From contig JACQXX010000003.1 in the NCBI GenBank assembly GCA_016208495.1, forward strand, positions 1 through 64,000: a DNA stretch of 64,000 bases, in the 5' to 3' direction. Every line of letters starts with the position of its first letter. Position 1 is the first letter of the stretch. The DNA is from Acidobacteriota bacterium. Its GTDB lineage: Bacteria > Acidobacteriota > Blastocatellia > Chloracidobacteriales > Chloracidobacteriaceae. Below the pieces are notes generated by a model that did no database searches, was not told the DNA's origin, and saw only the letters and a program-made list of their open reading frames with translations. Shown piece by piece: positions 31,732-49,882 of the stretch. The position numbers and the translations under genes are program-made.

Positions 31732-31865
31732 TGTGGGTGATGCGAGGCTGGTTGTCACCTGGATCCAGGATTTTCCACGGTGGGTGGATCGCTGGGTAAA
31801 GGTCCCAAAGGCAATTCGCGTGAGCAACCAGTTCCCACACCACTCCGGCTCAGGGGTAACTACGG

Positions 31866-32726: not shown

Positions 32727-32853
32727 GTGATACCATTTTGGAATGAACCCTCTGTATGAGGGGAAGTCTAAATGATTGAAACCCCTGTATTTCCCAGCAA
32801 CCCAGCAACCCTGAACCATAAATTGAGAAAAACAGTCTTCACCCTTTTTATTT

Positions 32854-33387
32854 GTGCCAACTCTTCGAATCATTTTTGTCATTTTCATCATTACTGCTCT
32901 CCAAACGGCGCTCCCCCGATATTGGCCGGGGTTCAGTTATCTTGATTTGCCTTTAATTTTAACGGTTCATTTGGGATTGCAGCGGAACGCGAGCCAGGCC
33001 ATCTGGTTTGGGGCGATTGCCGGGTTGTGCCAGGACATTTCACTGTCTTCCCGATTACTTGGATTATGCGGCTTTTCAAAAACCGCGATTGGCTACAGCC
33101 TCTGGTTTTTTGGAAATCGCTTTCGGTTGGATGGGGCGCTGCTCCGAATTTTTATTTTGCTGGCATCCTCCGCCGCCAATACCTTGATGTTTGTGGCACT
33201 TCATTTTTTCTTTGCGGCGGCTCCAGAAGGAATGAATATTCGCGGAGCCATGAAAATCGGAGGACTGCAGCTTGTGGGAAACCTGCTCGTTTCGCTGCTG
33301 TTGTTCCCAATTTTTGACAAATTCTTTCACGAAGATCCCTATGATCCAACCCGGGCCCCTGAAGTGGGCCGGCGGAAACTGAATTAG
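32854..33387 (+). CDS. mreD: Rod shape-determining protein MreD
   Basis: 177 residues from a GTG, with about five membrane segments and the MreD-typical 'WFGAIAGLCQDISLSSRLLGLCGFSKTAIGY' (~52-82). It is an integral partner of MreC in the elongasome. Sequence conservation in this family is low, so the call rests on topology, the motif and its place between mreC and mrdA. Confidence 0.92.
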   Translation: MPTLRIIFVIFIITALQTALPRYWPGFSYLDLPLILTVHLGLQRNASQAIWFGAIAGLCQDISLSSRLLGLCGFSKTAIGYSLWFFGNRFRLDGALLRIFILLASSAANTLMFVALHFFFAAAPEGMNIRGAMKIGGLQLVGNLLVSLLLFPIFDKFFHEDPYDPTRAPEVGRRKLN

Positions 33388-33586
33388 CCAGTGTTGAGGT
33401 GAAGAAAAAGTCTGTCCACCCATCTGTTCTGACTCGACTGTTTCTTCTTTTTGCTGGGTGAATAAGGAAACTTTCCTAGATTCAAATGAAAAAAAAGGGC
33501 AAACTATTTATCCAGCTTGTGGCTTCGCACGCGGTTCAATCTCAGAATCACAACCTCGAATTCTTACCCCCTCGTGTTGTTGCATT

Positions 33587-35620
33587 ATGCCATTGAAATC
33601 TCTCGATTCCGACGGGTCGCATCCCTATAACCTCCACTTCCGGTTCCTGATTCTGCAATATTGCATCGTCATTGCCTTCGGCGTACTGGCGCTGCGGTTC
33701 TGGAACATGCAGGTGGTTCAGCATGAAAACTATGTCCGACAGGCTGAAAACAACCGGTTACGGGACGTTCCGATTCCGGCGCCGCGGGGCAACATTCTGG
33801 ATCGCAATGGCCGGATTCTGGTTGATAGTCGCCCGACATTTAATTTGATGATCAATCGGGAAGATATCGGTGAACAGGAAGCCACCATTCGCATGCTGGT
33901 TGAAGAATTCGGGGTTGATCGTGAGTATGTGCTCCAGCAGCTTCAGTCACAGGCTGCTAAATCCCGACCAATTGAAGTCAAAATTGATATTACCGATGCC
34001 GACCGGGCCCGAGCTGCTGCGTTGTCCTATGAATACCCCGAACTGACCGTGGAATTGCACCCCCAACGCAAATACCCCCTGGGTGATATCGGGTCGCATA
34101 TTTTGGGCTATGTGCATGAAATCAGTCCTTCCCAATTGAAGCCACCATTGCGGGCCGAATATGAAAACTGTAAACCGGGCGATAAAGTCGGACAGGCCGG
34201 ACTGGAAAAATCTTATAACCAGGTCTTGATGGGGAAGGAAGGCTATCGCCGGGTGATTGTGGACAGCCGGGGCCGATTTGTGAGCGAACTGGAGCAGGTG
34301 CCCCCGTCACCGGGCCAGGATGTGGTCACCACGATTGACCTGGACCTGCAGTTGATGGCGGAGCAGGTCCTGCGTGAACGGGGGTTGGACGGCATTATCA
34401 TTGTCATGGACCCACGCAATGGGGAAATCCTGGCCATGGCTTCGTTCCCAGGGTATGACCCCAATCTGTTTTCCTCCGGGATTTCAAAAGTGGATTATGC
34501 CAAACTGGCTCAGGATCCGCATAAACCGCTCCGGAACCGTGCCATTCAAGATATTTATCCCCCTGGATCAACCTGGAAGCTGATTATGTCTGTGGCGGGG
34601 ATGAAATCGGGTGTGTTGGATCCAAACAACACGTATGTGTGCGGTGGCGGTATCACCGTTGGTAATAAGTTTACCCGCTGTATGGGCGCCCACGGTGCAC
34701 CAAAGATTGACTATGCCCTGACCAAGTCGTGCGATGGATTCTTTTATCGCCTTGGAATCAAGCTAGGACTTGAAAACCTTCAAAAATGGGCCACCGAAAT
34801 GGGGTGTGGCCAATATACGGGCATTGATTTGCCAAATGAGTTTAAGGGATACATTCCAAGTCTGGAGTTGAAAGCGGCAACCGTCCGGCGTTCTTTCCCC
34901 AACCCGACCGCCAGGGAGTTTGAGTGGCGGGACATAGATTCGGTGTATGCCTCTATCGGACAGGCCATGGTCCGACCCACGCCGCTCCAAATGCTGCGGG
35001 CGGCGGCGGGGATTTCCCAACGTGGAACCTTTCACACGCCGCATTTATTGCTCGAAGCCAGACCTACCAAAGATTATCCCGCCCGATTTTTCGCGGACAA
35101 AACCCATAAAATTGAAATGCCTCCCGAAAACTGGGAAGCGATTATCAAAGGCATGTGGGGAGCGGTCAATTCTGGCGGCACCGCGACTGGTTCCGCGATT
35201 ACTGAGTTTCCGGGTTGGGAAATGTGTGGAAAAACCGGCACGGCTCAGGTGGTAAGTAAAATCAAGACCGAAAAGCTGGAGGAAAAAGACCACTCGTGGT
35301 TTGTTGCCTTTGGCCCGCGTGAAAATGCTGAAATCGCGGGAATTTCGCTCGTTGAACACGGCGGGTTTGGGGCAAAGGCTTCGGCCCCAAATGTGAAGGC
35401 CGTCTTTGAAACCTATTTGAAGAAAAAGAACGGCTTACCGATTGAGGTGTCGCTGGAGACAGTTCAGGAAGCGGCAAAGAAGGCCGAACAGTTCCGCAAG
35501 GAGTGGCACAACGCTATTGCCCGCCGACAACAACGTGCTGAGACCCGACAAACGAAACCGGCAACAACGCCCAAGCCGGCAACAACGCCCAAACCGGCGG
35601 CTACAACTCCGGTTCAATGA
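33587..35620 (+). CDS. mrdA: Penicillin-binding protein 2 (elongasome transpeptidase)
   Basis: 677 residues from the ATG at 33587; an upstream extension to 33458 looks non-coding. There is an N-terminal membrane anchor (~19-40), a dimerisation/pedestal domain starting 'RDVPIPAPRGNILDRNGRILVDSRP' and a transpeptidase domain. The catalytic serine is in 'PPGSTWKL' (SxxK), the second motif reads 'SCD' where SxN is usual, and the third is 'GKTGTAQ'. It cross-links side-wall peptidoglycan with RodA. The C-terminal tail is a Lys/Thr/Pro repeat (TTPKPA). The cluster order mreB-C-D-mrdA-rodA is standard. Confidence 0.96.
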   Translation: MPLKSLDSDGSHPYNLHFRFLILQYCIVIAFGVLALRFWNMQVVQHENYVRQAENNRLRDVPIPAPRGNILDRNGRILVDSRPTFNLMINREDIGEQEATIRMLVEEFGVDREYVLQQLQSQAAKSRPIEVKIDITDADRARAAALSYEYPELTVELHPQRKYPLGDIGSHILGYVHEISPSQLKPPLRAEYENCKPGDKVGQAGLEKSYNQVLMGKEGYRRVIVDSRGRFVSELEQVPPSPGQDVVTTIDLDLQLMAEQVLRERGLDGIIIVMDPRNGEILAMASFPGYDPNLFSSGISKVDYAKLAQDPHKPLRNRAIQDIYPPGSTWKLIMSVAGMKSGVLDPNNTYVCGGGITVGNKFTRCMGAHGAPKIDYALTKSCDGFFYRLGIKLGLENLQKWATEMGCGQYTGIDLPNEFKGYIPSLELKAATVRRSFPNPTAREFEWRDIDSVYASIGQAMVRPTPLQMLRAAAGISQRGTFHTPHLLLEARPTKDYPARFFADKTHKIEMPPENWEAIIKGMWGAVNSGGTATGSAITEFPGWEMCGKTGTAQVVSKIKTEKLEEKDHSWFVAFGPRENAEIAGISLVEHGGFGAKASAPNVKAVFETYLKKKNGLPIEVSLETVQEAAKKAEQFRKEWHNAIARRQQRAETRQTKPATTPKPATTPKPAATTPVQ

Positions 35621-35653
35621 ACCACTTTTCCTGACCAGGCGGTGATCCACCCT

Positions 35654-36775
35654 ATGATGACACGTGATATTCGAGATTTTGACTGGCCGTTGTTGATTGC
35701 CGCCCTGGTGTTGTGTGGCATGGGGATTACCGGCATTTACAGTGCCCAACCGGAAGGGAATTTCTGGTTTAAGCAACTGGTGACGGTCGGGATTGGGCTG
35801 GTGGTCATGTTTGTTTTGTCACAGATCAATTTTCAGCGGTTGTTTGATGTGGTGCCTTATTTTTACGCCGCAACCATGATCCTGCTGGTCCTGGTTCTGA
35901 TGATTGGCACCAAAATCAACGGTCAGCGGTGCTGGATCAGTTTGGGGGCGTTCGGGACCTTGCAGCCATCGGAGTTTGCCAAGCTGGGGACAATTATGAT
36001 GGTTGCCCGGATTTTGCACCCCTTGCAACGACGGGCAGTGACGATGGATTTTGCACTCAAAGCCTGTGCGGCAGTGGCTTTGCCCGTCGGGCTGATTATG
36101 CTGGAGCCGGATACCGGCACCGCGCTGACGTTTTTCCCGGTGCTGATTGCGATGTTGTTTGTCAGCGGGTTGAATCGGCGCTTTATTGTGGTGACGCTGA
36201 TTCTGACCTTAATCATCGCCCCGTTTGGTTTCAAATATGTGATTGAACCCCGGTTGAAGCAGTATCAACGGGATCGGATCAACGTTGCGGTGAATGCGAT
36301 GTTTGCACCGGAAAAACTCCAGGGCCGGGAAATTCGAGAAGGGTATGGATACCAAACCCTGCAATCCATGATTGCGGTTGGATCCGGCGGCGCCACCGGA
36401 AAGGGAATTACCAAAGGAACTCAGAGCCAGGGCGGATTCGTCCCGGAAAAACGTACCGACTTTATTGCCGCGGTTTTGGCTGAGGAACTTGGGTTTGCTG
36501 GAAGCATCTTCATGCTTGCGCTTTTGCTGTTCATCATAATACACTCGGCTCGCACCGCCGAACGCGCACGCGATCGGTTTGGCTTGCTGATACTCACCGG
36601 ATTCGTCACGTTGCTTTCATTTCACGCGGTCATCAATATCGGCATGGTTGTTGGTTTGGTCCCGATTATGGGGATTCCGCTTCCATTGTTGAGCTATGGC
36701 GGAACCTCGCTGCTGATGACGTTTATGTGTCTTGGCATCGTTGCCAATGTGTATCAGCAGCGGTTTGTCAATTAG
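35654..36775 (+). CDS. rodA: Peptidoglycan glycosyltransferase RodA (SEDS family)
   Basis: 373 residues with about ten membrane segments. RodA polymerises lipid II into glycan strands for elongation, paired with PBP2. SEDS motifs seen are 'GIYSAQPEGNFWFKQ', 'KINGQRCWISLGAFGTLQPSEFAKLGTIMM' (~85-114), 'LEPDTGTAL' (~152-160, essential Asp), 'GKGITKGTQSQGGFVPEKRTDFIAAVLAEELG' and 'GIPLPLLSYGGTSLL' near the C-terminus. Two adjacent ATGs (35654, 35657) and a GTG at 35642 are possible starts. Confidence 0.96.
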   Translation: MMTRDIRDFDWPLLIAALVLCGMGITGIYSAQPEGNFWFKQLVTVGIGLVVMFVLSQINFQRLFDVVPYFYAATMILLVLVLMIGTKINGQRCWISLGAFGTLQPSEFAKLGTIMMVARILHPLQRRAVTMDFALKACAAVALPVGLIMLEPDTGTALTFFPVLIAMLFVSGLNRRFIVVTLILTLIIAPFGFKYVIEPRLKQYQRDRINVAVNAMFAPEKLQGREIREGYGYQTLQSMIAVGSGGATGKGITKGTQSQGGFVPEKRTDFIAAVLAEELGFAGSIFMLALLLFIIIHSARTAERARDRFGLLILTGFVTLLSFHAVINIGMVVGLVPIMGIPLPLLSYGGTSLLMTFMCLGIVANVYQQRFVN

Positions 36776-37716
36776 TCAAGAACCTGAGACGCTGAACCCA
36801 TCATGCAATCTTGCCGGATGGATCTGTCCCTGGCGTTTGGAGTGCGGGAAGGTTGTTCTGATCGCCGTTTGAGCAAACTCCAGTGCGGAAAATTCATTCT
36901 GGCCAAGGGGCTGGTGTCAGTGTTGACGAATCCATGGCGAAATTGAATGGTGAACGTCAGGTAGGTGTACAACTTTCTTTCCAACTTTTTGTGTTGAGGC
37001 TTGGTTTCGGTAAGAAAGAAGTCTGTTTGCGAAAAACAGAGGCTGAAACAGGAGCCAGCAACGACGTTTGACATAGCTCGTTTTAACTCTGCTGCCGCTT
37101 TCTGGCAGTAGACTGAAACAACTTTGGGATTGGTTTTCATCCAGAAATAAGGTGTGGTATCTGACTGTCTCTTGTTTTGAACCAGGAATCAGTCTTATCT
37201 TCTAAAATTCTGCTCGTTTTCTGAAGAAATGTTGCTTGAAACAGGAAAAATCACCATTCGGTGAGAGAAAACACAGGATTTGCCAGTCTGAGAGAAGACA
37301 CTGCGCTTCAGGTATCTTGACGCAAGTCCGGCTTGCGCTCTCAGCGGCACACCGGTTGTTCACCCTTCTTCTGATCGGTCTCCGTTCCATACCCCGAGCT
37401 GATTTGACAAGTGTTGGTGCCAGTGCTCCCTTCGGCAACTTGATTGGGACATCCTTTGGGCACATTTCGGTGTGTCCGGTCATCACCCAATGCGTGGTTA
37501 TCTCAGACCCGTTGCGCTTTATCGGGTACGAGTTTGACCATTGGGCGGCGAGAGAGAGTCGCAATCAATCTTCCTCTTGATCTCATCCTGCTTCCTTTTA
37601 CCAGTTTCTCCTCCAAGCCACACACATTGAAACAATCCATATTCGTTGTCAGGGTGTAGTCCCCAGCGCGCAAGTTACCTGACAAAAGAGTGATTTTGTA
37701 GGGCTTAGAGGAAACT
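36776..37716. other. Long non-coding stretch upstream of RNase E/G gene
   Basis: 941 nt without a convincing gene on either strand; the open frames of up to 122 codons have no protein-like character. A short stem CGCAAG-TCCGG-CTTGCG lies near 37321-37337. TTGACA occurs at 37069-37074 and near 37404, but without a good -10 at 17 nt. Part of it may be a long 5' leader of the RNase gene. Confidence 0.45.
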
Positions 37717-40620
37717 ATGAATAAAGAAATGATTATCAGTGCAAGCGCCCACGAAAAGCGCGTGGCCATTCTGGAAAACGGAGTGGTGATGGAATTTTAC
37801 GTTGAGCGCATTGATGAAACGCAGGCTGTGGTCGGAAATGTCTATAAAGGACGTGTGGTGAAGGTCCTGCCAGGCATGCAATCCGCCTTTGTGGATATCG
37901 GTCTGGAACGGGATGCGTTTCTCTATGTTTCGGACTTCTTTGAAGAAGAAGGCAATGATGAATATGACACGGAATCTGTCTCAAACGAAGGTCAGGCCCG
38001 TGGGAAAGGCCGAGAAGGACGGGAGGCGCCACGTCAACCGGATCGGGATCTGTCAGGCCGTCACAAACGGGATCGTGATCCCCGTCCTCTGGTGACCGAA
38101 CCTGCCGAAAGTACCGTAAAGGCCAAACCCGCAATCGAAGACCAGGTCGAGTTTGACAGCCGTTTGCTCCCACCAGACCTGGATGTGGACGATTCCTTAT
38201 CTGAAATTGCGATTATGACGGATGGGTTGGATTTAAGCGTCAGCCCGGAAGCCTCGGTTGTCGAACTTGATCCTGAGGAAATGCAGGCCGTGCTCGAAGC
38301 CGAAAGCGAAGTTCAGCTTGAGCGGGTCGAAATTCACCCAGTTGAGGATGAAGAACCGGTTGTCGCCGAACCAGTCGAGTCAACCGAACCTGATCTAGAT
38401 CTGGCGCTGGCCTTGTCTGATGGATTCCAGTTTGAACGGGTCACTGACCACGATATGCCTCAGGTGGAACCAGAGCCCCCAGCCACCCAACCCGAAGCCG
38501 ATGTCCAGGCTGAAGCCGCTGAAGCCCCCACGGAAGTCGCTGTCGTGGCTGAAGTTGAACCGCTGGTCGTTGAAGCCGAGACCAGGCCCCAGGGGCGCCG
38601 GCGGGGACGCAAAAAAGCGGAACCTGTAAAAGTCGAACCACCCCCAGTTGAAATTCCGGTCCAGGCTGAACCGACTCCGGTTGAACCTGCTGGAAAGAAA
38701 AAGCCGGCACGCGGCGGACGCAAGAAAGCCACTCCACCTCCAGCTCCAGCCGTGGCCTTTGAACGCATTCTGGATGACGATGTGCTCTCCGACGCGGGTG
38801 ATTTACTCAAAGAAGCGATTGTTCAGCATAAAATCCTGGAGCAAACCCGACAGGATGAGTATGAAATCGCGGCGACTCCCACTGCGGAGGACGGCGCCCA
38901 GCCAGCGATGGAGGCAACGCCAGTTGCTCCTGAAATTGCTCAACCAGCTCCAGTCCGGGTCGCGGATGAAGAACCCGTCGAGCCAGCCGTGGCGCAAGGG
39001 GAACCGGAAGCTGATCTGACCGATACGGAAGCCAGTGTCGGCAAACGGTCGCGTAACTCTGAATTTGCTTCGCGTCGTGGCCGTCGTGGTCGTCGTCGTG
39101 GCCGGCCAGCCAATGGTGGCGGGGCCGCCCAGTCGGATGAGGATACCGGTGAAACGACGCTGGCCGATTCAGATGTGGCCGCGCTGCTCGGAGATGAAGC
39201 TGAGGCTGATGGCGGGGACTCAGAGACTCCGGAAATGAAAGCCAAAGATGACAGTCTCGGGGATGATTCCCTGGTGCCGCCCCAGCCCCCGGTTGCCGCG
39301 CTGCCGGCTCGCCGTGAATCACGAGACCTTCCTCCCCCCCGTGACACTCGAACCAAGAGCGAAGCCCGTCCCCCCCGTGAATTTCGCGGTCGGGCGCCTG
39401 GAATTACCGATCTCCTTCGAGAAGGTCAGGAAATTCTGGTTCAAATTGCGAAAGAGCCGATTGGCACCAAAGGTGCCCGCATTACTTCGTATGTGGCGTT
39501 GCCTGGGCGATATCTGGTGTATATGCCGACCGTGGCCCACATTGGGGTTTCACGCAAAATTCCTTCAGACCAGGAACGCACCCGGTTGAAACGAACCATG
39601 ATCAACTTGCGGGACCGCGAACAGATTCCAGGTGGCTTTATTGTTCGCACTGCCTGTGAGGGACACACCGAGGAAGAACTGCGCGAAGACATGATGTATT
39701 TGTTTCGCACCTGGCAGGATATGCGCAAACGATCTGAGCATTCCAAGCCTGGGACGGTCGTCTATCGTGAACTCGATCTGGTCCAGCGGCTCTTGCGGGA
39801 TCACCTCTCCAATGAATTCTCGGTCATTCGGGTTGATAATGAAGAAGAATATGCCCGGGTGGTTGACTTCATCAGTCGCTTCCAACCCAAATTGCTTGAT
39901 CGAGTCAAACTCTATACCCGGAAACGTCAGATTTTTGAGGAATATGGAGTTCAATCAGAACTCGATGCGGCCTTGAAACCCAGGGTATGGCTCAAGTCGG
40001 GCGGGTTTATCGTGATCAACCAGACCGAAGCGCTGGTGGCGATTGATGTCAATACCGGGAAATTTGTCGGACGCTCAAACCGGTTGGAAGACACGATTGT
40101 CAAAACCAACCTCGAAGCGGCGGTTGAAATCGTGCGCCAGATTCGCCTGCGTGATCTGGGCGGAATCATTGTGCTTGATTTCATTGATATGGAAGAGCGC
40201 AAAAATCGCCAAAAAGTGATGCAGGTGTTGGAGCAGGAAATCAAATCTGACCGGTCGCCTTCCAAAATTCTGCAATTTAACGATTTTGGTCTGGTGGCGA
40301 TTACGCGCAAGCGGGTTCGACAGAGTCTGGAACGGATTTTGTGTGAACCTTGCCCCTATTGCACCGGGGCGGGAATCGTCAAATCAGCCGAGACGGTATG
40401 TTATGAGATTCTGGCTGAATCCAGGCGGATGGCGTCGGATATGGAAGGTGAAACCCGAAGCCGGGAAGTCACGTTGCGGATCAACCCCTCCGTTGCCAAG
40501 GCATTGCGGAATGAACAAAAGCAGGTGTGGGGAGAAATCGAAGACTATCTGGGCTGCTCGGTTTCCTTGCAATCAGACCCCAATATCCACCAGGAACACT
40601 ATGACTTTGCGTTTCTGTAA
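37717..40620 (+). CDS. rng: Ribonuclease E/G with giant insertion in the S1 domain
   Basis: 967 residues, about twice the RNase G core. It starts normally: 'AILENGVVMEFYVERIDETQAVVGNVYKGRVVKVLPGMQSAFVDIGLERDAFLYVSDF' (~19-76). The S1 fold is then interrupted by about 490 residues of low-complexity sequence rich in Glu/Pro/Ala, with basic patches such as 'SRRGRRGRRRGRP' (~448-460). The core resumes at 'ITDLLREGQEILVQIAKEPIGTKGARIT' (~565). Catalytic metal residues lie in 'VAIDVNTGKFVG' and 'GGIIVLDFIDM', and the Zn-link is 'CPYCTGAGIV'. It cleaves single-stranded RNA and matures rRNA. There is no C-terminal scaffold, so the insertion may fill that role. RBS GAGGAAAC precedes the ATG. Confidence 0.93.
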   Translation: MNKEMIISASAHEKRVAILENGVVMEFYVERIDETQAVVGNVYKGRVVKVLPGMQSAFVDIGLERDAFLYVSDFFEEEGNDEYDTESVSNEGQARGKGREGREAPRQPDRDLSGRHKRDRDPRPLVTEPAESTVKAKPAIEDQVEFDSRLLPPDLDVDDSLSEIAIMTDGLDLSVSPEASVVELDPEEMQAVLEAESEVQLERVEIHPVEDEEPVVAEPVESTEPDLDLALALSDGFQFERVTDHDMPQVEPEPPATQPEADVQAEAAEAPTEVAVVAEVEPLVVEAETRPQGRRRGRKKAEPVKVEPPPVEIPVQAEPTPVEPAGKKKPARGGRKKATPPPAPAVAFERILDDDVLSDAGDLLKEAIVQHKILEQTRQDEYEIAATPTAEDGAQPAMEATPVAPEIAQPAPVRVADEEPVEPAVAQGEPEADLTDTEASVGKRSRNSEFASRRGRRGRRRGRPANGGGAAQSDEDTGETTLADSDVAALLGDEAEADGGDSETPEMKAKDDSLGDDSLVPPQPPVAALPARRESRDLPPPRDTRTKSEARPPREFRGRAPGITDLLREGQEILVQIAKEPIGTKGARITSYVALPGRYLVYMPTVAHIGVSRKIPSDQERTRLKRTMINLRDREQIPGGFIVRTACEGHTEEELREDMMYLFRTWQDMRKRSEHSKPGTVVYRELDLVQRLLRDHLSNEFSVIRVDNEEEYARVVDFISRFQPKLLDRVKLYTRKRQIFEEYGVQSELDAALKPRVWLKSGGFIVINQTEALVAIDVNTGKFVGRSNRLEDTIVKTNLEAAVEIVRQIRLRDLGGIIVLDFIDMEERKNRQKVMQVLEQEIKSDRSPSKILQFNDFGLVAITRKRVRQSLERILCEPCPYCTGAGIVKSAETVCYEILAESRRMASDMEGETRSREVTLRINPSVAKALRNEQKQVWGEIEDYLGCSVSLQSDPNIHQEHYDFAFL

Positions 40621-40703
40621 ACCGAGACAGTGATCTTGAGCAACACGGCAAGAGAGCGAAGTGTGAAGTAGTGAAGTCACGAAGTAGCAACCGCTTACAG
40701 AGG

Positions 40704-40751
40704 ATTTCACTATTTCACTATTTCACTATTTCACTATTTCGCTATTTTGCC
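40704..40751. repeat. Octamer tandem array, unit ATTTCACT
   Basis: Four ATTTCACT, one ATTTCGCT and one ATTTTGCC unit at 8-bp period. It is related to the ATTTCGCT array at 16775-16816. Confidence 0.88.
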
Positions 40752-40988: not shown

Positions 40989-41184
40989 ATGCCAGTGAAG
41001 AGTTGAAAAAATGAGCGGATTTGAACCCGCGAAGCGGGTGACAGGCTCGTAGCCCAGGGTGCAACCCTGGGAAAAGGTGGGGACTGACCCGAATTCCCAG
41101 GGCTCGAAGACTCGCCCTGGGCTACGAGCCGGCGCCCAGTTCCTGGGCTGAGAACCAAAAACGGATTCAACTCTTCACTGGCAT
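40989..41184. mobile_element. MITE-like element with 19-bp terminal inverted repeats (family 1, copy B)
   Basis: 196 bp. The ends are ATGCCAGTGAAGAGTTGAA (40989-41007) and its perfect complement (41166-41184). Compared with copy A at 9525, the base changed in one arm (T to G) is matched by the complementary change in the other. The interior shares the 'CGTAGCCCAGGGT...CCCAGGGCTCGAAGACTC' and 'GCCCAGTTCCTGGGCT' modules. The right end is followed at once by three TCCTGAC/TCCTGAC-type heptamers (41185-41205). Confidence 0.82.
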
Positions 41185-41337: not shown

Positions 41338-43140
41338 ATGCGGATCTGCATAGAATGTGGATATGTCGGGAATACCTCAGGTGATGTGCGGTGCAACCAG
41401 TGCGGGGTTGAGTTAACCAGTCTTTCCGATTTGGAAAGCGGGGAAATTCAAGTCATTGGGTCGCCACGGCTGGCGGTGGGTGCCATCCTGGCCAATCGGT
41501 ATCGCATTCTTGAAGTGGTACACCTTCCTCACCGGGCGGTGTATTACCACGGTCAATTGATTGATTCGCCTTCTGCCACCCTGTGCTGGATCACTGAAAT
41601 GAAGTCGCAGCATCCACACCCGCTTTCAAATTTTGATTTATCGGCTTCAATCCAGGTTTCGTTTTCCGAGCGAAATCCGTTAGGCATCACCGCGCTCTTT
41701 CTCAAAAACACGACCATGGCTGGATTGCCCAAGTTTCTCGATTGTTTCGAGGAGGACACCTGGGCCTATCTGGTGGTTGAAAAACCTGATGCCAAACCAC
41801 TGAGTCTCATCGGGCAGGTCACCGAAGGGGACGCCCATCGAATCGGAGGACAGGTCTGTCGGATTCTTACGCTGATTCATCGGGTTGGGTTGATCCACAA
41901 TGGAATTGAAACCAACAGTCTCTGGCTGGACAGTCAAGGGCAGGTCTGGTTAATGTGTTTTGATCGGATGCGCCCACGTGGGTTGTTTGATCCAATCTTT
42001 CCCTTGACCCCGATTGAAGGCTACTCTCCCCCGGAGTACATCTGGTTAACGGCCAATGTCCAGCTTGATGCCCGGATTGATGTCTATAGCCTTGGGTGTG
42101 TGCTGTATTTTTTGTTGACTGGGCATTCATTTTCGTCACGTCCCTCGTCATTGCATTTGCGTCGGGGTCTGGGGACCTATCCGGAACTGCTCCTCTCGCC
42201 AGCCTTTGAACGAATCTTGCTCCGAACCCTGGCGCTCAATCCCCAGCATCGCTTTACCTCGGTGGTCGAACTGGCGGCCACCCTCGTCAGTCTGGCCTAC
42301 CTTGCCCAGCCCCAGGCTGGATCCTACACCGATGTGGGACGGCATCGGGAACTGAATGAAGACAGCATTCTGATCCTGGATTTACAGCAATATTTTGAAT
42401 CAAGCCTGGCGCACGTTGGCCTGTATGTGGTTTCAGATGGAATGGGAGGCGAGGCTGCCGGCGAAGTTGCCAGCCGGATCACGGTGCGGGCCATCGCGGA
42501 GTGGATTACGGAGCGATTGATCACCATGAATTTGAGATCAACCCATGGCAGTCGCCTCATGCAATCAACGGAAAGTGGAGATATTCTCTATATCAGCGAA
42601 ACGGGCACCAATGCCCGGTCCAAGCAGTTGCTGACCAGTGCAATTCTGCACGCAAATCGTGAAATCCTTGATTATGCAGGGTTTAACCCGGCATCTGAAG
42701 GGATGGGCGCCACCGTGACCGCCGCGTTGCTGATCGGAAATATGTTGACGGTTGGGCAGGTTGGCGACAGTCGGTGTTATGTGTGGAGTCATGGCCGACT
42801 GGAATTGATCACCGAAGACCACTCTCTGGTTGAGCGCATGGTTCGTCGCGGGGAATTAACCCCGGATGAAGCCCGGCATCACCCGCACCGCAACATTATT
42901 TATCGGTCGGTGGGCAGTTCGGATGAAATCGAAGTTGATATTGTCACCCGTCGGCTCCAAGCGAACGATACCGTGCTCTTATGCAGCGATGGGTTGACCA
43001 ACATGCTGGATGATGAACTGATCGGAGAGATTTTAGCTCGGGGTGTGGATCCCTGGAGCATCTCAAAAGAACTGGTCATTGCCGCCAATGCCTGTGGCGG
43101 GGAAGACAATATTTCGGCGGTCGTGATTCGAATTCTGTAG
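41338..43140 (+). CDS. Zinc-ribbon pseudokinase fused to PP2C-type Ser/Thr phosphatase
   Basis: 600 residues. A four-Cys zinc ribbon comes first ('CIECGYVGNTSGDVRCNQCG', ~4-23). A protein-kinase-like domain follows (~48-335), with kinase landmarks 'RYRILEV', 'YSPPEYIW' and 'DVYSLGCVLYFLLTGHSF' but none of the catalytic residues. The glycine loop reads VHLPHR, the VAIK lysine position reads WITEM, the HRD loop reads HNGIETNSL, and DFG reads CFDR. The C-terminal PP2C domain (~340-600) looks intact: 'RELNEDS', 'VVSDGMGGEAAGE', 'QVGDSRCYVW', 'LLCSDGLTNML' and 'GGEDNISAVVI'. The likely role is dephosphorylation of Ser/Thr phosphoproteins under control of the dead kinase domain. An upstream ATG at 41287 would add 17 residues. 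Confidence 0.88.
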   Translation: MRICIECGYVGNTSGDVRCNQCGVELTSLSDLESGEIQVIGSPRLAVGAILANRYRILEVVHLPHRAVYYHGQLIDSPSATLCWITEMKSQHPHPLSNFDLSASIQVSFSERNPLGITALFLKNTTMAGLPKFLDCFEEDTWAYLVVEKPDAKPLSLIGQVTEGDAHRIGGQVCRILTLIHRVGLIHNGIETNSLWLDSQGQVWLMCFDRMRPRGLFDPIFPLTPIEGYSPPEYIWLTANVQLDARIDVYSLGCVLYFLLTGHSFSSRPSSLHLRRGLGTYPELLLSPAFERILLRTLALNPQHRFTSVVELAATLVSLAYLAQPQAGSYTDVGRHRELNEDSILILDLQQYFESSLAHVGLYVVSDGMGGEAAGEVASRITVRAIAEWITERLITMNLRSTHGSRLMQSTESGDILYISETGTNARSKQLLTSAILHANREILDYAGFNPASEGMGATVTAALLIGNMLTVGQVGDSRCYVWSHGRLELITEDHSLVERMVRRGELTPDEARHHPHRNIIYRSVGSSDEIEVDIVTRRLQANDTVLLCSDGLTNMLDDELIGEILARGVDPWSISKELVIAANACGGEDNISAVVIRIL

Positions 43141-43483
43141 CCAGGGTACCTGAAAATCTGAAAACGGAAGGGGATTGGCGCTCCTGTTGGGAGAATACCC
43201 TTGAAAACAAATCCCCATCCCTCTTGCCTGAGACGGGTTTTGGAATATAATTCAAAACCAATCAACACTTTCACAACGCATCAGCAACACACAATCTATT
43301 GCAAATAAGCTGTTTTGACGCAGAGACTGTCCCTGGCACATTCGTTTCTAGTCGGTAAGCTGAGTTGAGTGCCACAAGGAAACGTGTGATGTCCCAAGGA
43401 ACAGCCGCTGGTTTCTGAGATTCTGACTTCTTTAGCCCGGGCCCTCACGCCTGACACAAATTTTGAAAGGCAGGTATGTACTG
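43141..43483. other. Intergenic region within the signalling cluster
   Basis: No gene is seen in 343 nt. GAAAGGCAGG (43465-43474) just upstream of the next ATG is a plausible ribosome-binding site. TTGACG at about 43316 could be a -35 element but lacks a good -10. Separate transcription of the FHA gene is possible. Confidence 0.4.
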
Positions 43484-44344
43484 ATGATTCGATGCAGTTA
43501 TTGTGGTACCGACAACTTAGATGGTTCTGAATACTGCGACGAGTGTGGGAATAAGCTCAACATTCAGGCTTCAGCTTCAACGTTGCATATTGACCCCAGC
43601 CCGGCGCCAGGTGCCCCGGTTGGATATGGCGCACCCGGGATGATGCCTGTTCCCCCATCAGCACCTTCACCCGCGCTGCAGTCACCAGTCGTCGCGCCGT
43701 TACCCGCCGCACCCCTGTACCCGATGCCTCCCGCCAGTGCGCCGCCAGTGATGCCGCCAACTCCCGCGCTTTCGCCGCCGCCGCCACCGATTCCGCCGAT
43801 GCCCCCCAAAGCCTTAACGCCGCCGCCGCCAGCCATGCCGGCGCCGAGTCCAATCGGGCAGCCCCCGATGCCTCCGGCTTTTTCAAGTGCGCCACCGCCG
43901 ATGCCCCCGGCGCCGTCAGCCGTTCCTCTCCCGCCACTTGACCATGGGGCGCCCCCACCAACATTTATCCCTGGTGGGGGGGCTGCATCAAGTTCTCCCT
44001 CAGGCAAAACACCAGGGCGTGCCAAATTGATCATTCAGCGGGGCGGCACCATCGGCAAAGAATTTATGTTGACCGATACTGAATCCAATATTGGTCGCTG
44101 GGATGCCGATGGCGGGATTTTCCCGGATGTTGACCTGGATCAGGACGACCCGGAAGCCAAGGTTTCTCGCCGGCATGCCCGAATCGTTCACCAGAGCGGG
44201 CAGTATTTGCTTGAAGATTTAGGCAGTACGAATGGCACCTTCATCAACCGTGGACGTCGGCTTTTACCTGGAAGTCGCCATGCGTTGAGCAATGGGGATG
44301 AGATTATTGTCGGGAAGACATTTTTAAAATTTGTGGTTGAATAG
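43484..44344 (+). CDS. Zinc-ribbon, proline-rich, FHA-domain protein
   Basis: 286 residues from the ATG at 43484 (a TTG seven codons earlier is possible). A four-Cys zinc ribbon 'CSYCGTDNLDGSEYCDECG' (~4-22) leads into about 150 residues of Pro/Ala-rich linker. The C-terminal FHA domain (~187-286) has the phosphothreonine-binding residues: 'NIGR', 'VSRRHARIV' and 'DLGSTNGTFIN'. FHA domains read phosphothreonine marks, so this should be a target or adaptor of the kinase encoded next. Its FHA domain is a close relative of that kinase's own FHA domain, including 'FPDVDL.. DPE.KVSRRHAR'. Confidence 0.88.
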   Translation: MIRCSYCGTDNLDGSEYCDECGNKLNIQASASTLHIDPSPAPGAPVGYGAPGMMPVPPSAPSPALQSPVVAPLPAAPLYPMPPASAPPVMPPTPALSPPPPPIPPMPPKALTPPPPAMPAPSPIGQPPMPPAFSSAPPPMPPAPSAVPLPPLDHGAPPPTFIPGGGAASSSPSGKTPGRAKLIIQRGGTIGKEFMLTDTESNIGRWDADGGIFPDVDLDQDDPEAKVSRRHARIVHQSGQYLLEDLGSTNGTFINRGRRLLPGSRHALSNGDEIIVGKTFLKFVVE

Positions 44345-44483
44345 TGCGCCAGCGGAGAAAATTTGTGATTTCTTCGGTGGGGCCTGGTTGCCACGGGTGA
44401 CCCTGGCCCGCAGCCGCGGGGAATGGGTCACCACACCGGCATCATCGCCTGCCATTTGAATCGGTTCGCCTGGTGGTTTTGGA

Positions 44484-45878
44484 ATGAGCATACCAAACAG
44501 AAAATCACCCAATGCACAACTCGAACCAGGAACATTGCTTTCCGACCGCTACCAGATTGTAAAACGGGTTGGCGGCGGCGGGATGGGGAGCGTCTACCTG
44601 GCCTATGATACTCGCCTTGGGAACAAACCCAGGGCGGTCAAAGAGATGGTGGAGTTGTTTGTTGATGAAACCCAGCGACGGAAAGCAGTTGATGATTTTA
44701 AACGAGAAGCCCAGTTGCTGGCGAGTCTGGATCATCCGTCAATTCCGACGATCTTTGATTATTTCATCTCAGCCGATGGTCGCTATTATCTGGTGATGAA
44801 GTATATCGGGGGAGGGGATTTACAGGGCCAGCTCAAAAAAAGGGGTGGGGTGATCGAAGAGCGGTCCGTGACCGAATGGGGCATCCAAATTTGTGATGTA
44901 CTGCATTATTTGCACAGCCAAAACCCTCCGATTATCTACCGAGACTTAAAACCAGCCAACCTGATGCTGGATGATGCCATTACCCCGTCCCGAATTATGC
45001 TGGTGGATTTCGGAATTGCCCGGTTTGTGGCTCCGACTCAAAAAGGGGTGACGGCCATCGGAACCATGGGGTATGCCCCTCCAGAGTTGTTTTCGGGAAA
45101 TGTTGAACCCCGGTCGGATATCTATTCACTTGGGGCGACGATGTTTCATCTGGTGACCGGGGTGGACCCACAAGACAACCCGTTGCTCATCTTTGATTTC
45201 ACAAAAAACCAGCGCCCCCGTCAGCTTCGTCCGGCGCTCACCTCTGAAATGGACAATCTCCTGGCCCGCATGGTTGAACACCGACCGGAACGGCGGTTTT
45301 CCTCAGCGATGGAACTCAGGTATGCCCTGGATGAGCATTTACGCCGGCTCAGTCAGTTGCCACCCCCGCCACCACCCGTGAACCTTGATGGCGGAGTTGT
45401 CCGGCAGACCGGACGTGGGTTGGGGAACGCACCTCCCGTCGAACAGGTGTTTTGCGGGAATTGTGGCCAACGGATTGCCGGTGATGACCATTTTTGCCCG
45501 CATTGTGGTACCCGGCAACCCATTGCTTCACCCCAACCTCGAATTATCCCACGACTGGTTCTCATGGCTGAGGCTGATGTGGTGACCACAACGGCGTTTC
45601 CACTCGAAAAAGACACCAATCTCATTGGTCGCAACGATCCGCACACGGGGGTTTTTCCTGAAGTTGATTTGACGTCATTTGACCCTGAAACCAAGGTTTC
45701 CCGCCGACATGCCAGAGTCTACCGTGAGGGTGGGGTTTTTCTGGTTGAAGATCTTTCAAGTGTGAATGGAACCTTCGTCAACGATAATATTCGGCTTTAT
45801 CCAAAACAGCCGCGGGCCCTCCAGGAAGGGGATAAATTGCGGCTTGGTGAGACAACTCTCAAGTTTGTCCTTGGGTAG
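44484..45878 (+). CDS. Ser/Thr protein kinase with zinc ribbon and C-terminal FHA domain
   Basis: 464 residues, no membrane segment. The kinase domain (~22-290) is complete: glycine loop 'VGGGGMGSVYLA', lysine in 'RAVKEM', HRD loop 'YRDLKPANLML', 'LVDFGIARF', 'GYAPPEL' and 'DIYSLGATMFHLVTG'. A proline-rich hinge (~296-303) leads to a zinc ribbon 'CGNCGQRIAGDDHFCPHCG' (~329-347) and an FHA domain (~365-464; 'LIGRND', 'VSRRHARVY', 'SVNGTFVN'). It phosphorylates Ser/Thr in the cytoplasm and can bind its own or partner phosphothreonines. It lies 139 nt after the zinc-ribbon FHA gene and is the intact counterpart of the pseudokinase encoded at 41338. Confidence 0.94.
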   Translation: MSIPNRKSPNAQLEPGTLLSDRYQIVKRVGGGGMGSVYLAYDTRLGNKPRAVKEMVELFVDETQRRKAVDDFKREAQLLASLDHPSIPTIFDYFISADGRYYLVMKYIGGGDLQGQLKKRGGVIEERSVTEWGIQICDVLHYLHSQNPPIIYRDLKPANLMLDDAITPSRIMLVDFGIARFVAPTQKGVTAIGTMGYAPPELFSGNVEPRSDIYSLGATMFHLVTGVDPQDNPLLIFDFTKNQRPRQLRPALTSEMDNLLARMVEHRPERRFSSAMELRYALDEHLRRLSQLPPPPPPVNLDGGVVRQTGRGLGNAPPVEQVFCGNCGQRIAGDDHFCPHCGTRQPIASPQPRIIPRLVLMAEADVVTTTAFPLEKDTNLIGRNDPHTGVFPEVDLTSFDPETKVSRRHARVYREGGVFLVEDLSSVNGTFVNDNIRLYPKQPRALQEGDKLRLGETTLKFVLG

Positions 45879-46048
45879 TGGCCTGTTACACTAATTGGCG
45901 ACTCTGCTTTCCTGCCAGTGACTGGGCGATTGCCTGCTTGATATGGTCGCTTTGGGACCCAGGTTGGTGGAAACAAACCCTGAGCTGGGGTTTGGTGTCA
46001 GCCCCACCACCAAACAGGAGTTGCAAACCAATTGAACGAGAGTTGAGC

Positions 46049-46867
46049 ATGCGTTGTCGCAATTGCAATCAGGAACTTGCACGGTCTGGAAAGTTTTGTC
46101 GGTTTTGCGGTTCGCCGCAACCGGCATCAGAGAGTGCTGGGGCACCACTTCGAAATTCAGCCGGCTCCGTTCAAGTGACGAAAACGCTGGGGTCTCCTCC
46201 CCGACTGGCTGTGGCCCCACCGGCTGGTTCTGCCTTACCTGCCAAAGGGAGTGGGGGCGCCAGTCCAGTCACTGAAGGACCAGCCCAGGAGTGGAAATAC
46301 CAGTCACTGAGTAATCTGCCGCTGCCAGCCCTGGCTCCCCCCGAATCGGAGGGTACCGGTGGCGAGCGCAAAAGTGAAGACCCATTGATGCTTAGCGTGC
46401 GGCCTGAAGACTTTTCACTGGCGCCACCCACCAATGTGTTGATTGGGCCTTTTCAACAGGCTGGGTTTGGGCTTCGATTTGGTGCCGGCATGTTTGATTT
46501 TTCGCTGTATATGCTGTGGTTTTTGGTGTGGTGGCCAATTGCTGCTCTGTTGGCCAAACAAAACCCGGCAATTTCCTATTCACTTCAGGGGTTGGGATAC
46601 TGGGTGTTTGGGATTCTTGTGATTGCCAATCACCTGTTGCTTCCGGCTCGCCAGGGACAAACCCTTGGAAAATGGCTGGTTGGGATTCGGATTATCCAGA
46701 CCAGTTTTGCTCCGGTTTCAGTGATGCATATTCTCAAACGCCATCTCATTGGCTACCCACTGTCCCTGATTTTTGGTCTCGGTTTTCTGTGGATGTTGTG
46801 GGATCGTCGGCAACAGGGATGGCACGACAAGCTTGCGCACACGCTGGTTGTTCGGTTAGATGTATAG
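46049..46867 (+). CDS. Zinc-ribbon RDD-family membrane protein
   Basis: 272 residues from the ATG at 46049. The frame is open from a GTG overlapping the kinase stop, but that 57-residue extension does not look native. The N-terminus is a zinc ribbon 'CRNCNQELARSGKFCRFCG' (~3-21), followed by about 110 residues of Pro/Gly-rich linker. The RDD domain (~135-272) has about three membrane segments with 'GLRFGAGMFDFSLY', 'GQTLGKWLVGIRI' and 'GWHDKLAHTLVV'. RDD proteins are small membrane proteins, some involved in ion transport. In this cluster it could be the membrane anchor or output of the kinase system. Confidence 0.8.
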   Translation: MRCRNCNQELARSGKFCRFCGSPQPASESAGAPLRNSAGSVQVTKTLGSPPRLAVAPPAGSALPAKGSGGASPVTEGPAQEWKYQSLSNLPLPALAPPESEGTGGERKSEDPLMLSVRPEDFSLAPPTNVLIGPFQQAGFGLRFGAGMFDFSLYMLWFLVWWPIAALLAKQNPAISYSLQGLGYWVFGILVIANHLLLPARQGQTLGKWLVGIRIIQTSFAPVSVMHILKRHLIGYPLSLIFGLGFLWMLWDRRQQGWHDKLAHTLVVRLDV

Positions 46868-46878
46868 CCGCCTGCACA

Positions 46879-46950
46879 AAATTATGAATTATGAATCAGC
46901 CTACCCTGGTCTCCATCAGGTATGAATCTCATAATTTATAATTCATAACT
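46879..46950. repeat. AT-rich inverted heptamer repeats
   Basis: ATTATGA-ATTATGA (about 46882-46896) is mirrored by ATAATTT-ATAATTC (about 46931-46944), giving an imperfect hairpin after the RDD gene. Confidence 0.5.
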
Positions 46951-47158
46951 GGTTTCCCCTCGCATCCATCGTTCTTGTGATTCCACAGTTCCTTGTGGAT
47001 CAATCACCAGTCAATGCCCATAACCCCGCTTTTGACAGCTTGAACGGCACCTTCCTGGTGGAATGCGGTGTCGTCCCAAATCTGTTCCAGCAGTCTTGTT
47101 TACCGTCACGTACCACTCCCCAAATTCTCTGGTTGTCACGTTAAGGGCCGATTTGGAT

Positions 47159-48895
47159 ATGCCACTTTTATTTGTCCAGCAAGCCAATGGAATGAATTAT
47201 GAAGTTGCCGTGCAGAAAGTGCGCACCACGATTGGGCGTTCTTCGCGCAATGATATTTGCTTGAATGATCCATTTGCTTCGCGCGTTCATGCCGAAGTTC
47301 GTCGGGAAAACGAGAGCTTTTTCATTACTGATATGGGAAGTGCCAACGGGACCTACCATAATGGAATTCGAATGTCTGGAACGTTGCCGCTTCTGATCGG
47401 AGATATCATTCGAATTGGGGAAACACAGATTCACTTTCGTGAGTCGGACTCAACCGGGTCCTACAGTGCCAATATTCTGCTTTCAGATGCCGATTGGACA
47501 ACGGCCCCCGAAGCGACAATCATGGGGCGGAGCGGCGCCAACAAGAAAGACAGCTTGTTGACATCGGTGATTAGCGAAATGGCGGGCCGGGACAGGCTCA
47601 GTGACAAAACCGGAATTCTGACACCTCAACTCGGAGTGCTCGACAAGCAGCGCGATTTGCTGGCAGTGGTCAGCAAAGTGGTTGAAACGTTGCTCTCAGA
47701 ACGGTCACTGGACGAAACCCTCAAGTTGATTTTGGATCTGGTCTTTGATGCTGTGGCTGCTGAGCGAGGGTACATCTTTCTCACCAGTCCAACCGGTGAA
47801 TTGTTGCTTAAAGCCGCCCGGACAAAGACTGGAAATACTGACCAACTGGTCAATGAGGAAGTAAAAATCAGTCGGTCAATTATTGACACGGTACTCAGCG
47901 AATGTACCTCGGTGTTAACCTCAGATGCTCAGCAGGATCCACGGTTTTCACAGCGAAATTCGATTATGCTCAGTAACATCCGGTCAATTATGGCGGTTCC
48001 GCTTGCGCATACCGGCGATGAAGTGTTGGGGATGATTTATGTGGATTCGCATTACGGAACCAGCCGGTTTAGCCAGGAAGATCTGGGCGTTATCACCACG
48101 ATTGCCCGCGTGTCAGCCATTAAGATTGATAATGTCCGGTTGATGGAAGAACAACTGGAAAAACGGCGGATTGACGAAGAGTTAAAGGTGGCCAGTGAAA
48201 TCCAGTTGAGTTTGCATCCAGCCCGCCAGCCCAAAATTGATGGCTATGACGTGATGGGCATCAGCTTCCCGTGCCGTGAAATTGGTGGCGATTACTATGA
48301 TTTTATTCAATGTCGTGACCGAAACTGGATTGTTGCGGTGGGAGATGTCTCCGGAAAGGGAATTGGTGCGGCATTAATGATGTCAAGCCTGCACGCTTCA
48401 CTCCGGGCTCAGGCCCAGACCGGACGCCCGGTGGAAGATATTGTGTCGGAGGTCAACGCCTACATCACGGAAAATTCACCGGAAAACAAGTTCCTGACCC
48501 TGTTTTGTGGTGAACTGTGCCCACCGACCGGCACCATGACCTATGCCAGTGCCGGGCACAATGCCGCGCTCCTGGTTCGTGCGGACAAGTCGGTTGAAGA
48601 ACTCGGTGCCACAGGGCTCCCGGCTGGGATTACGGTTGATTTTCCCTATGAATCCGAACAGATTGTGATTGATCCAGGGGATATTTTGGTGATTTACAGT
48701 GACGGAGTGACCGAAGGCGTCAATGAACACGATGAATTGTTTGGTGAGCAACGGCTGATAGAAGTGATTCGACGCCATAATCACGCCAATGCTTCCCAGC
48801 TTCGTGACCGGATTGATGAAGCACTCAGCCATTTTGTCGGCAAAGAACCCCAGGCTGATGACATGACACTGGTGGTTCTGAAACGACTCAGGTAA
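47159..48895 (+). CDS. FHA-GAF-SpoIIE-type protein phosphatase (RsbU-like)
   Basis: 578 residues from the ATG at 47159; the frame is open to 47063. The N-terminal FHA domain (~1-95) has 'TTIGRSSRNDI', 'ASRVHAEV' and 'MGSANGTYHNG'. A GAF domain covers ~185-350. The C-terminal PP2C/SpoIIE phosphatase (~385-578) keeps its metal sites: 'GGDYYDF', 'VGDVSGKGIGAALMM', 'SDGVTEGVN' and 'QADDMTLVVL'. Such enzymes dephosphorylate anti-anti-sigma factors in partner-switching pathways. The FHA domain suggests recruitment to phosphothreonine proteins made by the neighbouring kinase. No anti-sigma or STAS gene is adjacent. Confidence 0.92.
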   Translation: MPLLFVQQANGMNYEVAVQKVRTTIGRSSRNDICLNDPFASRVHAEVRRENESFFITDMGSANGTYHNGIRMSGTLPLLIGDIIRIGETQIHFRESDSTGSYSANILLSDADWTTAPEATIMGRSGANKKDSLLTSVISEMAGRDRLSDKTGILTPQLGVLDKQRDLLAVVSKVVETLLSERSLDETLKLILDLVFDAVAAERGYIFLTSPTGELLLKAARTKTGNTDQLVNEEVKISRSIIDTVLSECTSVLTSDAQQDPRFSQRNSIMLSNIRSIMAVPLAHTGDEVLGMIYVDSHYGTSRFSQEDLGVITTIARVSAIKIDNVRLMEEQLEKRRIDEELKVASEIQLSLHPARQPKIDGYDVMGISFPCREIGGDYYDFIQCRDRNWIVAVGDVSGKGIGAALMMSSLHASLRAQAQTGRPVEDIVSEVNAYITENSPENKFLTLFCGELCPPTGTMTYASAGHNAALLVRADKSVEELGATGLPAGITVDFPYESEQIVIDPGDILVIYSDGVTEGVNEHDELFGEQRLIEVIRRHNHANASQLRDRIDEALSHFVGKEPQADDMTLVVLKRLR

Positions 48896-48910: not shown

Positions 48911-49882
48911 TTGGAAGATAAACTTGTCAATGATGACTATGATAGTCCCTGGAAAGAAGCCCTGGATGAATATTTTAAGGACTTCCTGGAGCTGTTGTTT
49001 CCGATGGTTCACGATGGGATAAATTGGGACATTGCTCCTCAACCACGCGACAAAGAATTCCAGAAAGTGACGGCTACCGCCAAACTGGGGCGACAAATTG
49101 CCGATAAACTCAAAGAAGTCCAAACCCACGAAGGTGAAACCCGGTGGGTGCTGATCCATGTCGAGGTTCAAGGCCAGTGGGAAGCTGATTTTCCCAGGCG
49201 GATCTTTCGGTTTGACGCCCGGCTGTTTGACGAATTTGAAAAACACATTGTGAGCCTGGTCGTGCTGGGAGACCCAAACCCGGACTGGGTGCCAAAAGCC
49301 TTTGGATGGTCTTTTTGGGGCTATGAAATGGGAGTTCGGTTTCCCATTGTGAAATTGATCAATCTGAATATTGAGGGCCTGGAGCAGAGCCAGAACCGGT
49401 TTGCTCCAATTGTGTTGGCCCACCTCAAAACGATGACCACCAAACACGAACCCCAAACCCGGCGTGAATGGAAGTTTCGGATTGTTCGGTCACTCTATGA
49501 AAAAGGGTATGCGGCGGAGGATGTGCGAAAACTCTTTCGGCTGATAGACTGGTTTATGTATTTGCCACAGGATTTGGAGCAAGGATTTCAGAAGGACCTG
49601 GAAGAATATGAGGAGGAACATCATATGCCTTATGTGACGACTATCGAACGTATGGCCGAAGCCCGAGGAAAAGCCGAAGGAAAAGCCGAAGGACGAGTCG
49701 AGTCAAAAATTGAAATGATTCTACTGACGCTCAAGGCACGCTTTGGCGAAATTTCTCCTGCCGTCATCAAAAAGATCCAGACAATTCAAAATGACGATCT
49801 CTTAAACACCCATCAGTTAAATGCCATTATGGCTCAAAGTCTGGAGGATTTTGTGGTTAAGTTGGAGACTTCGGTTGAGTGA
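48911..49882 (+). CDS. Rpn/PD-(D/E)XK nuclease-family protein (transposase-like)
   Basis: 323 residues from a TTG with an ideal GGAGG (48898-48902) eight nt upstream, 15 nt after the phosphatase gene. The N-terminal domain (~20-140) has 'INWDIAPQPRDKEF' and 'RWVLIHVEVQGQWEADFPRRIFRFDARLFDEF', matching the E-x-Q variant of the PD-(D/E)XK core in the Rpn/YhgA-like families found in Acidobacteria and cyanobacteria. A charged repeat 'EARGKAEGKAEGRVESK' (~252-268) precedes a helical C-terminus. Rpn proteins promote RecA-independent recombination in E. coli, but most relatives are uncharacterised. Read-through from the signalling operon is likely. Confidence 0.78.
   Translation: MEDKLVNDDYDSPWKEALDEYFKDFLELLFPMVHDGINWDIAPQPRDKEFQKVTATAKLGRQIADKLKEVQTHEGETRWVLIHVEVQGQWEADFPRRIFRFDARLFDEFEKHIVSLVVLGDPNPDWVPKAFGWSFWGYEMGVRFPIVKLINLNIEGLEQSQNRFAPIVLAHLKTMTTKHEPQTRREWKFRIVRSLYEKGYAAEDVRKLFRLIDWFMYLPQDLEQGFQKDLEEYEEEHHMPYVTTIERMAEARGKAEGKAEGRVESKIEMILLTLKARFGEISPAVIKKIQTIQNDDLLNTHQLNAIMAQSLEDFVVKLETSVE

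Follow-up and report, generated by a model that had tools for sequence, protein, structure and literature searches.

A cassette of five neighbouring genes, here named A to E, occupies positions 41338-48895 of the window, the 64,000-nucleotide stretch of contig JACQXX010000003.1 from a Blastocatellia bacterium (phylum Acidobacteriota) that we analysed. All five genes lie on the + strand. The initial annotation had described five consecutive kinase, phosphatase, FHA and membrane protein genes, and we confirmed this arrangement: the open reading frames are in place and Pfam supports each domain. The genes and their zinc ribbons are as follows.

41338..43140, + strand: gene A, ribbon-pseudokinase-PP2C, 600 amino acids (Pfam, 14 orthologues, AlphaFold2 (AF2), NCBIfam)
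41347..41403, + strand: zinc ribbon of A (cysteines invariant in 14 Blastocatellia orthologues)
43484..44344, + strand: gene B, ribbon-long proline-rich linker-FHA, 286 amino acids (Pfam, ortholog alignment, class-wide matches)
43493..43546, + strand: zinc ribbon of B, CSYCGTDNLDGSEYCDEC (40 Blastocatellia copies)
44484..45878, + strand: gene C, active-type Ser/Thr kinase-ribbon-FHA, 464 amino acids (Pfam, conserved catalytic residues)
45453..45506, + strand: zinc ribbon of C (C324, C327, C338, C341)
46049..46867, + strand: gene D, ribbon and RDD-family integral membrane domain (Pfam RDD)
46055..46108, + strand: zinc ribbon of D (sequence; weak Zn_Ribbon_1 score)
47159..48895, + strand: gene E, FHA-GAF-SpoIIE (RsbU-type PPM phosphatase), without a ribbon (Pfam, ortholog alignment)

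Aligning the orthologues gave A 41338, B 43484, C 44484, D 46049 and E 47159 as the likely start positions. The E frame is open from 47063, and the start at 47159 is common to the orthologues (invariant M33 in the alignment). Ribbons of the form C-x2-C...C-x2-C were present in A, B, C and D and absent from E, in agreement with the four of five genes first reported. In Pfam searches, A scored 42.6 bits for Pkinase and 42.4 for PP2C_2, with just 12.8 bits for its ribbon (motif C4-x2-C-x11-C-x2-C22). B scored 59.1 for FHA and 26.0 for Zn_Ribbon_1, and C scored 144.9 for Pkinase, 53.5 for FHA and 25.9 for Zn_Ribbon_1, with the catalytic residues K53, D154, N159 and D175 conserved in ortholog alignments. 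D scored 81.2 for RDD; its ribbon match was weak (15-16 bits), yet the motif C-x2-C-x10-C-x2-C is present. E scored 173.9 for SpoIIE, 70.4 for FHA and 55.7 for GAF.

Gene A encodes an N-terminal ribbon, a pseudokinase (approximately residues 45-325) and an intact PP2C domain (approximately 325-600). By motif reading, the β3 Lys, the HRD Asp and Asn, and the DFG Asp are all lost in 14/14 Blastocatellia orthologues, with HNG or YNG in place of the HRD region and F-D-R or F-N-Q in place of DFG. The same 14 proteins keep their five PP2C motifs intact, and the phosphatase is predicted to be enzymatically active. The full-length AF2 model of A had a predicted template modelling score (pTM) of 0.51 and its structural matches were dominated by PP2C, so the kinase-like part was modelled separately. 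This domain alone reached a pTM of 0.84 and matched PknB with a Z-score of 25.0 (root-mean-square deviation 3.0 Å, 244 residues aligned); because of this match, the modelled kinase fold is judged to be complete though catalytically dead. The PP2C half matched the solved bacterial PP2C tPphA with a Z-score of 34.6, and A passed the NCBIfam Stp1/IreP model (NF033484) with 238.5 bits against a cut-off of 230. The initial annotation had counted one kinase, which holds for the active-type kinase C and overlooked the second, dead kinase-fold domain in A. Neither PP2C nor Acidobacteria is mentioned in a review of bacterial pseudokinase families from 2025.

To follow the cassette in relatives, we searched 162 Blastocatellia genomes and a phylum sample that also covers 265 other Acidobacteriota genomes. 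Fourteen full-length orthologues of A were found in the class. The order A-B-C-D-E is colinear in seven genomes from three families with differing flanking genes (the window genome, G009, G010, G011 up to its contig end, G012, G013 and G154). B is far more widespread, with matches at E ≤ 1e-20 in 159 of the 162 class genomes; the weakest of these may be other FHA proteins, and nearly all are below 1e-45. At E ≤ 1e-45, all 32 matches in the phylum sample were from Blastocatellia and none (0/265) from the other Acidobacteriota genomes. Searching named genomes with B gave 46 loci, 43 of them of Blastocatellia type, and in all 41 of these that could be judged C directly follows B on the same strand, with D and E usually next. 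Intergenic gaps are as short as 2-23 bp (L087), consistent with an operon. In Chloracidobacterium (L094, L095) the set is reduced to B-C-E. The conservation result is strong, and the possibility that the genes are not conserved together in relatives was rejected.

The same data bear on whether the cassette could be a kinase-based antiphage defence system, which we regard as extremely improbable. C does give strong matches to the PADLOC kinase models PD-T4-6 and mad6, but these models match kinase domains generally, and C scored 138.9 against the MAD6 cut-off of 460. A gene order fixed throughout the class is also unlike a defence island. We rejected the defence reading as resting on generic kinase matches only.

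The ribbons of A, B and C are kept along with the gene order. The four cysteines of the A ribbon (C4, C7, C19, C22) are invariant in 14/14 Blastocatellia orthologues. All 40 Blastocatellia copies of B that could be read retain the ribbon, with its four cysteines at 100%, and other positions of the 22-residue ribbon are nearly as constant (Asp16 and Gly19 100%; Asn8, Ser12, Glu17 and Leu22 97%). Mean pairwise identity across these copies is 66% in the ribbon, 17% in the linker and 74% in the FHA domain. The four cysteines of the middle ribbon of C are invariant in 21 orthologues, and this ribbon is present in 38/38 complete copies, 28 of which carry a second ribbon. Across the 8.4 Mb genome there are 49 Zn_Ribbon_1 matches at E ≤ 1, three of them within 2.7 kb at the cassette. 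A control ribbon-linker-membrane protein from the same genome (L007) had matches in just 2/158 class genomes; it is too poorly conserved for residue-by-residue ribbon comparison and served as a retention control only. The ribbon is therefore a common domain that is unusually well retained in the cassette. Because the ribbons are clustered, and because gene order and ribbons are kept in distant genomes, the cassette is more than a chance grouping, and the kinase and reader core (C and B), kept together class-wide with its ribbons, looks like a real signalling module.

The best solved match of the B profile was ArnA, with both ribbon and FHA aligned. ArnA belongs to the archaellum regulatory network of Sulfolobus (PDB 5a8i, 8s05), has the same layout of ribbon, disordered proline-rich linker and FHA, and acts amid a kinase and phosphatase network, as proposed for B. 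On its own, the ArnA ribbon uses a hydrophobic surface to bind ArnB that is not phosphorylated; upon phosphorylation, binding moves to the FHA domain (PMC12852372). Of the two functions first suggested for the shared ribbon, assembly tag or metal/redox sensor, the docking role in ArnA favours the assembly tag, and by analogy the cassette ribbons may be such tags.

In the redox alternative, the ribbons would sense metal or thiol redox state and switch kinase and phosphatase jointly. A precedent is SpkB, of a type of cyanobacterial kinase that carries a Cys motif on a Ser/Thr kinase, as C does; its Cys-rich N-terminus is reported to undergo redox change mediated by thioredoxin (PMC10651672, citing Mata-Cabana 2012). 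However, the SpkB motif, read as redox-active, is N-terminal, whereas the C ribbon lies between kinase and FHA. The non-Cys residues of the B ribbon are nearly as conserved as its cysteines, and this suggests a binding surface. We saw no redox or metal gene in the cassette, and the original idea rested on the presence of cysteines. We consider joint redox or metal switching quite unlikely.

Related genes occur in a second phylum, the Cyanobacteriota. Three of the 46 B loci (L120, L122, L123) have the order C-A-B, and L120 is from a metagenome-assembled genome named 'Cyanobacteria bacterium RYN_339'. A-type pseudokinase-PP2C proteins are encoded in 17 of 244 Cyanobacteriota genomes; C adjoins A in at least 16 of these 17 and B is adjacent in 8. 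The A proteins of this phylum (n=13) have lost DFG and the catalytic Asn, with the Lys kept in most and the HxD Asp in all, and a pseudokinase with an intact PP2C domain is thereby found in 27 orthologues across both phyla. In Cyanobacteriota, the kinase domain of C is flanked by a ribbon on each side; at L120:3674-6259, this ribbon-kinase-ribbon unit is joined to a sensor domain of the periplasmic amino-acid-binding type (Peripla_BP_6).

Ordinary cyanobacteria have a comparable pair, in which a ribbon-PP2C protein (PRK14559, NF011149) adjoins an FHA-kinase in 9/12 loci; two of the 12 also have a ribbon-FHA gene close by. PRK14559 and A are alike in having a ribbon, a middle region and a PP2C domain beside a kinase bearing FHA. 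However, A scored 111.4 bits against the PRK14559 family cut-off of 374, and the associated kinase has FHA first, the reverse of the domain order in C. In an hhalign comparison of PRK14559 with A, just the ribbon was aligned, so homology of the PRK14559 middle region to the A pseudokinase is not claimed. A double-ribbon PP2C gene stands beside the FHA-kinase at L248-L254, L257 and L259, a conserved pair for which no description of function was found. FraH of Anabaena, a putative ribbon-FHA protein, is encoded by a gene needed for membrane reorganisation.

We propose that the cassette encodes one phospho-signalling module with kinase C and adaptor B as its core, A as a dedicated eraser, D as a membrane anchor and E as an output phosphatase. 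C would phosphorylate Thr residues in itself and its partners, and the FHA domains of B, C and E would read the resulting phosphothreonines. A plausible phosphothreonine site, judging by sequence, is the C activation loop, where GVTA(I/V)GTMGYAPPE is common to nearly all copies. The ribbons of A, B, C and, in this genome, D would be protein-docking modules that loosely hold the partners before phosphorylation, and FHA-phosphothreonine binding would then tighten the complex, as in ArnA-ArnB. The pseudokinase of A may bring its PP2C domain to the kinase complex and thereby allow the complex to be reset. E would be recruited through its FHA domain and gated by its GAF domain, and would relay the signal by dephosphorylating a STAS-type anti-anti-sigma factor encoded elsewhere in the genome, thereby setting a sigma-factor switch. 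The guiding role of the pseudokinase and the signalling of E to a sigma factor are suggested by domain families only. Ten RsbW-like ATPase domain matches occur elsewhere in the genome, whose signalling repertoire is very large (approximately 120 kinase-domain and 35 FHA matches). We hold the mechanism as a whole with moderate confidence, and put the probability of a five-gene module with ribbon docking and FHA locking at roughly 55%.

Several observations weigh against this model. The D ribbon is retained in just 9/36 orthologues, the E orthologues have none (0/35), and the Cyanobacteriota A proteins are without one. Ribbons are found on many unrelated proteins in this genome: we read at least 25 different ribbon-bearing proteins, and many of these are small membrane proteins. 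Across most of the class the cassette has no A, which is isolated in family f9, and neither a STAS nor an anti-sigma gene was found adjoining E. ArnB, the vWA protein (Sec23/24-like) that is the known partner of the ArnA ribbon, has no counterpart in the cassette, Pfam detecting no vWA domain in the five proteins. Because ArnB is absent, the cassette is not an Arn system. The phosphatases differ as well, being PP2A in Arn and PP2C in A, and none of the pseudokinase-PP2C, RDD and SpoIIE genes is described alongside ArnA in the Arn literature examined.

The objection that the ribbons might not be kept among orthologues is thus rejected for A, B and C but holds for D. The initial annotation had proposed a shared ribbon linking writer, reader, eraser and membrane partner, and the retention in A, B and C upholds this in part; the ribbon is mostly lost from D and was never seen in E. 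The suggestion that it is an assembly tag likewise gained an experimental precedent in ArnA (PMC12852372), though with a different partner there and with a tag that is not on all cassette members. The ribbonless D, E and Cyanobacteriota A proteins indicate that the ribbon belongs to the writer and reader core and is not a uniform partner tag.

The ribbonless copies, and the abundance of N-terminal ribbons elsewhere in the genome, would also fit a simpler explanation, in which kinase, PP2C and FHA genes are co-conserved for the usual reasons and the ribbons serve only as generic caps that aid folding or stability and do not link the proteins. Generic caps would not be expected to keep the non-Cys residues of the B ribbon at 97-100% class-wide beside a linker at 17% identity. 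The middle ribbon of C is never lost, and the control protein was rarely retained. We regard generic caps as possible but doubtful.

The cassette shares its logic with several known systems. In mycobacteria, the PknB-PstP-FhaA/FhaB/GarA set likewise combines a kinase, a PP2C phosphatase and FHA readers in one locus, and the closest folds to the two halves of A are PknB for the pseudokinase and bacterial PP2C proteins including PstP for the phosphatase. However, the cassette has no PASTA domain and a different locus, and PstP lacks the ribbon-pseudokinase. C scored 188.7, from the kinase part only, against the PASTA kinase model (NF033483), whose cut-off of 450 includes the PASTA repeats. B scored 52.7 and 58.8 for FhaB and GarA-OdhI, whose cut-offs are 125 and 200. 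We rejected a mycobacterial FHA family identity because these curated cut-offs were not reached.

A set controlling cell wall or cell shape, like the mycobacterial RodA-PknB-PstP-FhaA/FhaB locus, might be suspected from the genes for MreB, MreC, MreD, PBP2, RodA and RNase G (Rng) directly upstream (window 30679-40620) and also in the related genome G009. However, mre, pbp2, rodA and rng were near the cassette in none of the other loci tested (flanks of approximately 2-10 kb), and the low scores of C and B against the PASTA kinase and FhaB models also speak against it. Because these neighbours are conserved only in the window and G009, we rejected a cell-shape link as a general feature, and consider it very unlikely as an explanation of the cassette.

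Kinase, PP2C and FHA logic is also common to the PpkA-PppA-Fha/TagH proteins of type VI secretion. No secretion genes were seen in the cassette or the scanned neighbours, as the initial annotation had stated, and the scores against TagH (TIGR03354) were 45.6 for B, 42.7 for C and 38.4 for E. We rejected a type VI secretion reading since these are below the curated cut-off of 120. The GAF-SpoIIE part of E resembles the RsbU/SpoIIE partner-switching phosphatases; E differs from them in adding an FHA domain, in sitting in a kinase cassette and in having no adjacent STAS or anti-sigma gene. The cassette is apparently a previously undescribed form of kinase-FHA-PP2C signalling, as no description of it was found in the literature searched, in which coverage of subscription journals was thin.

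Blastocatellia are abundant, poorly understood soil and hot-spring bacteria. A module near-universal in their searched genomes would be a core signalling hub that is apparently undescribed. The cassette offers a test case for how dephosphorylation is directed by a dead kinase joined to the phosphatase, and for small zinc ribbons as assembly modules in bacterial phospho-signalling, as in archaeal ArnA. A more tentative extension, which we think rather unlikely, is that interchangeable ribbon docking tags define an unnamed class of bacterial signalling systems, where the writer, the reader and an eraser guided by a dead kinase come together through ribbons before FHA-phosphothreonine locking, ancient enough to be found in Blastocatellia, Cyanobacteriota and, at the level of the reader, archaeal ArnA.

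Several lineages have an additional gene, X, between D and E. It encodes a TPR protein with a likely transmembrane segment, and three of four examples have a zinc ribbon of their own; the copy in L065 has none. The examples with ribbon, likely transmembrane segment and TPR are:

L064:3932-5161
L100:10626-12326
L103:11244-12920

The gene after E at L100:14209-15438 encodes a PrsW intramembrane protease-zinc ribbons-FHA fusion (Pfam, L100 only) and is a possible extra cassette member. Similar genes, judged by ribbons and FHA similarity, occur in L090, L092 and L126.

Upstream of A (window 40690-40750 and 41020-41130) there are short 'ttcactatt' tandem repeats and a palindrome-like cccagggctcgaag...gccctgggctacgagcc. 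The D-E interval holds an AT-rich inverted repeat, aattatgaattatgaat ... ataatttataattcat (window 46880-46960). The gene directly after E (window 48911-49882) has a sub-threshold DUF4351 match only and resembles a mobile Rpn/PDDEXK-type protein.

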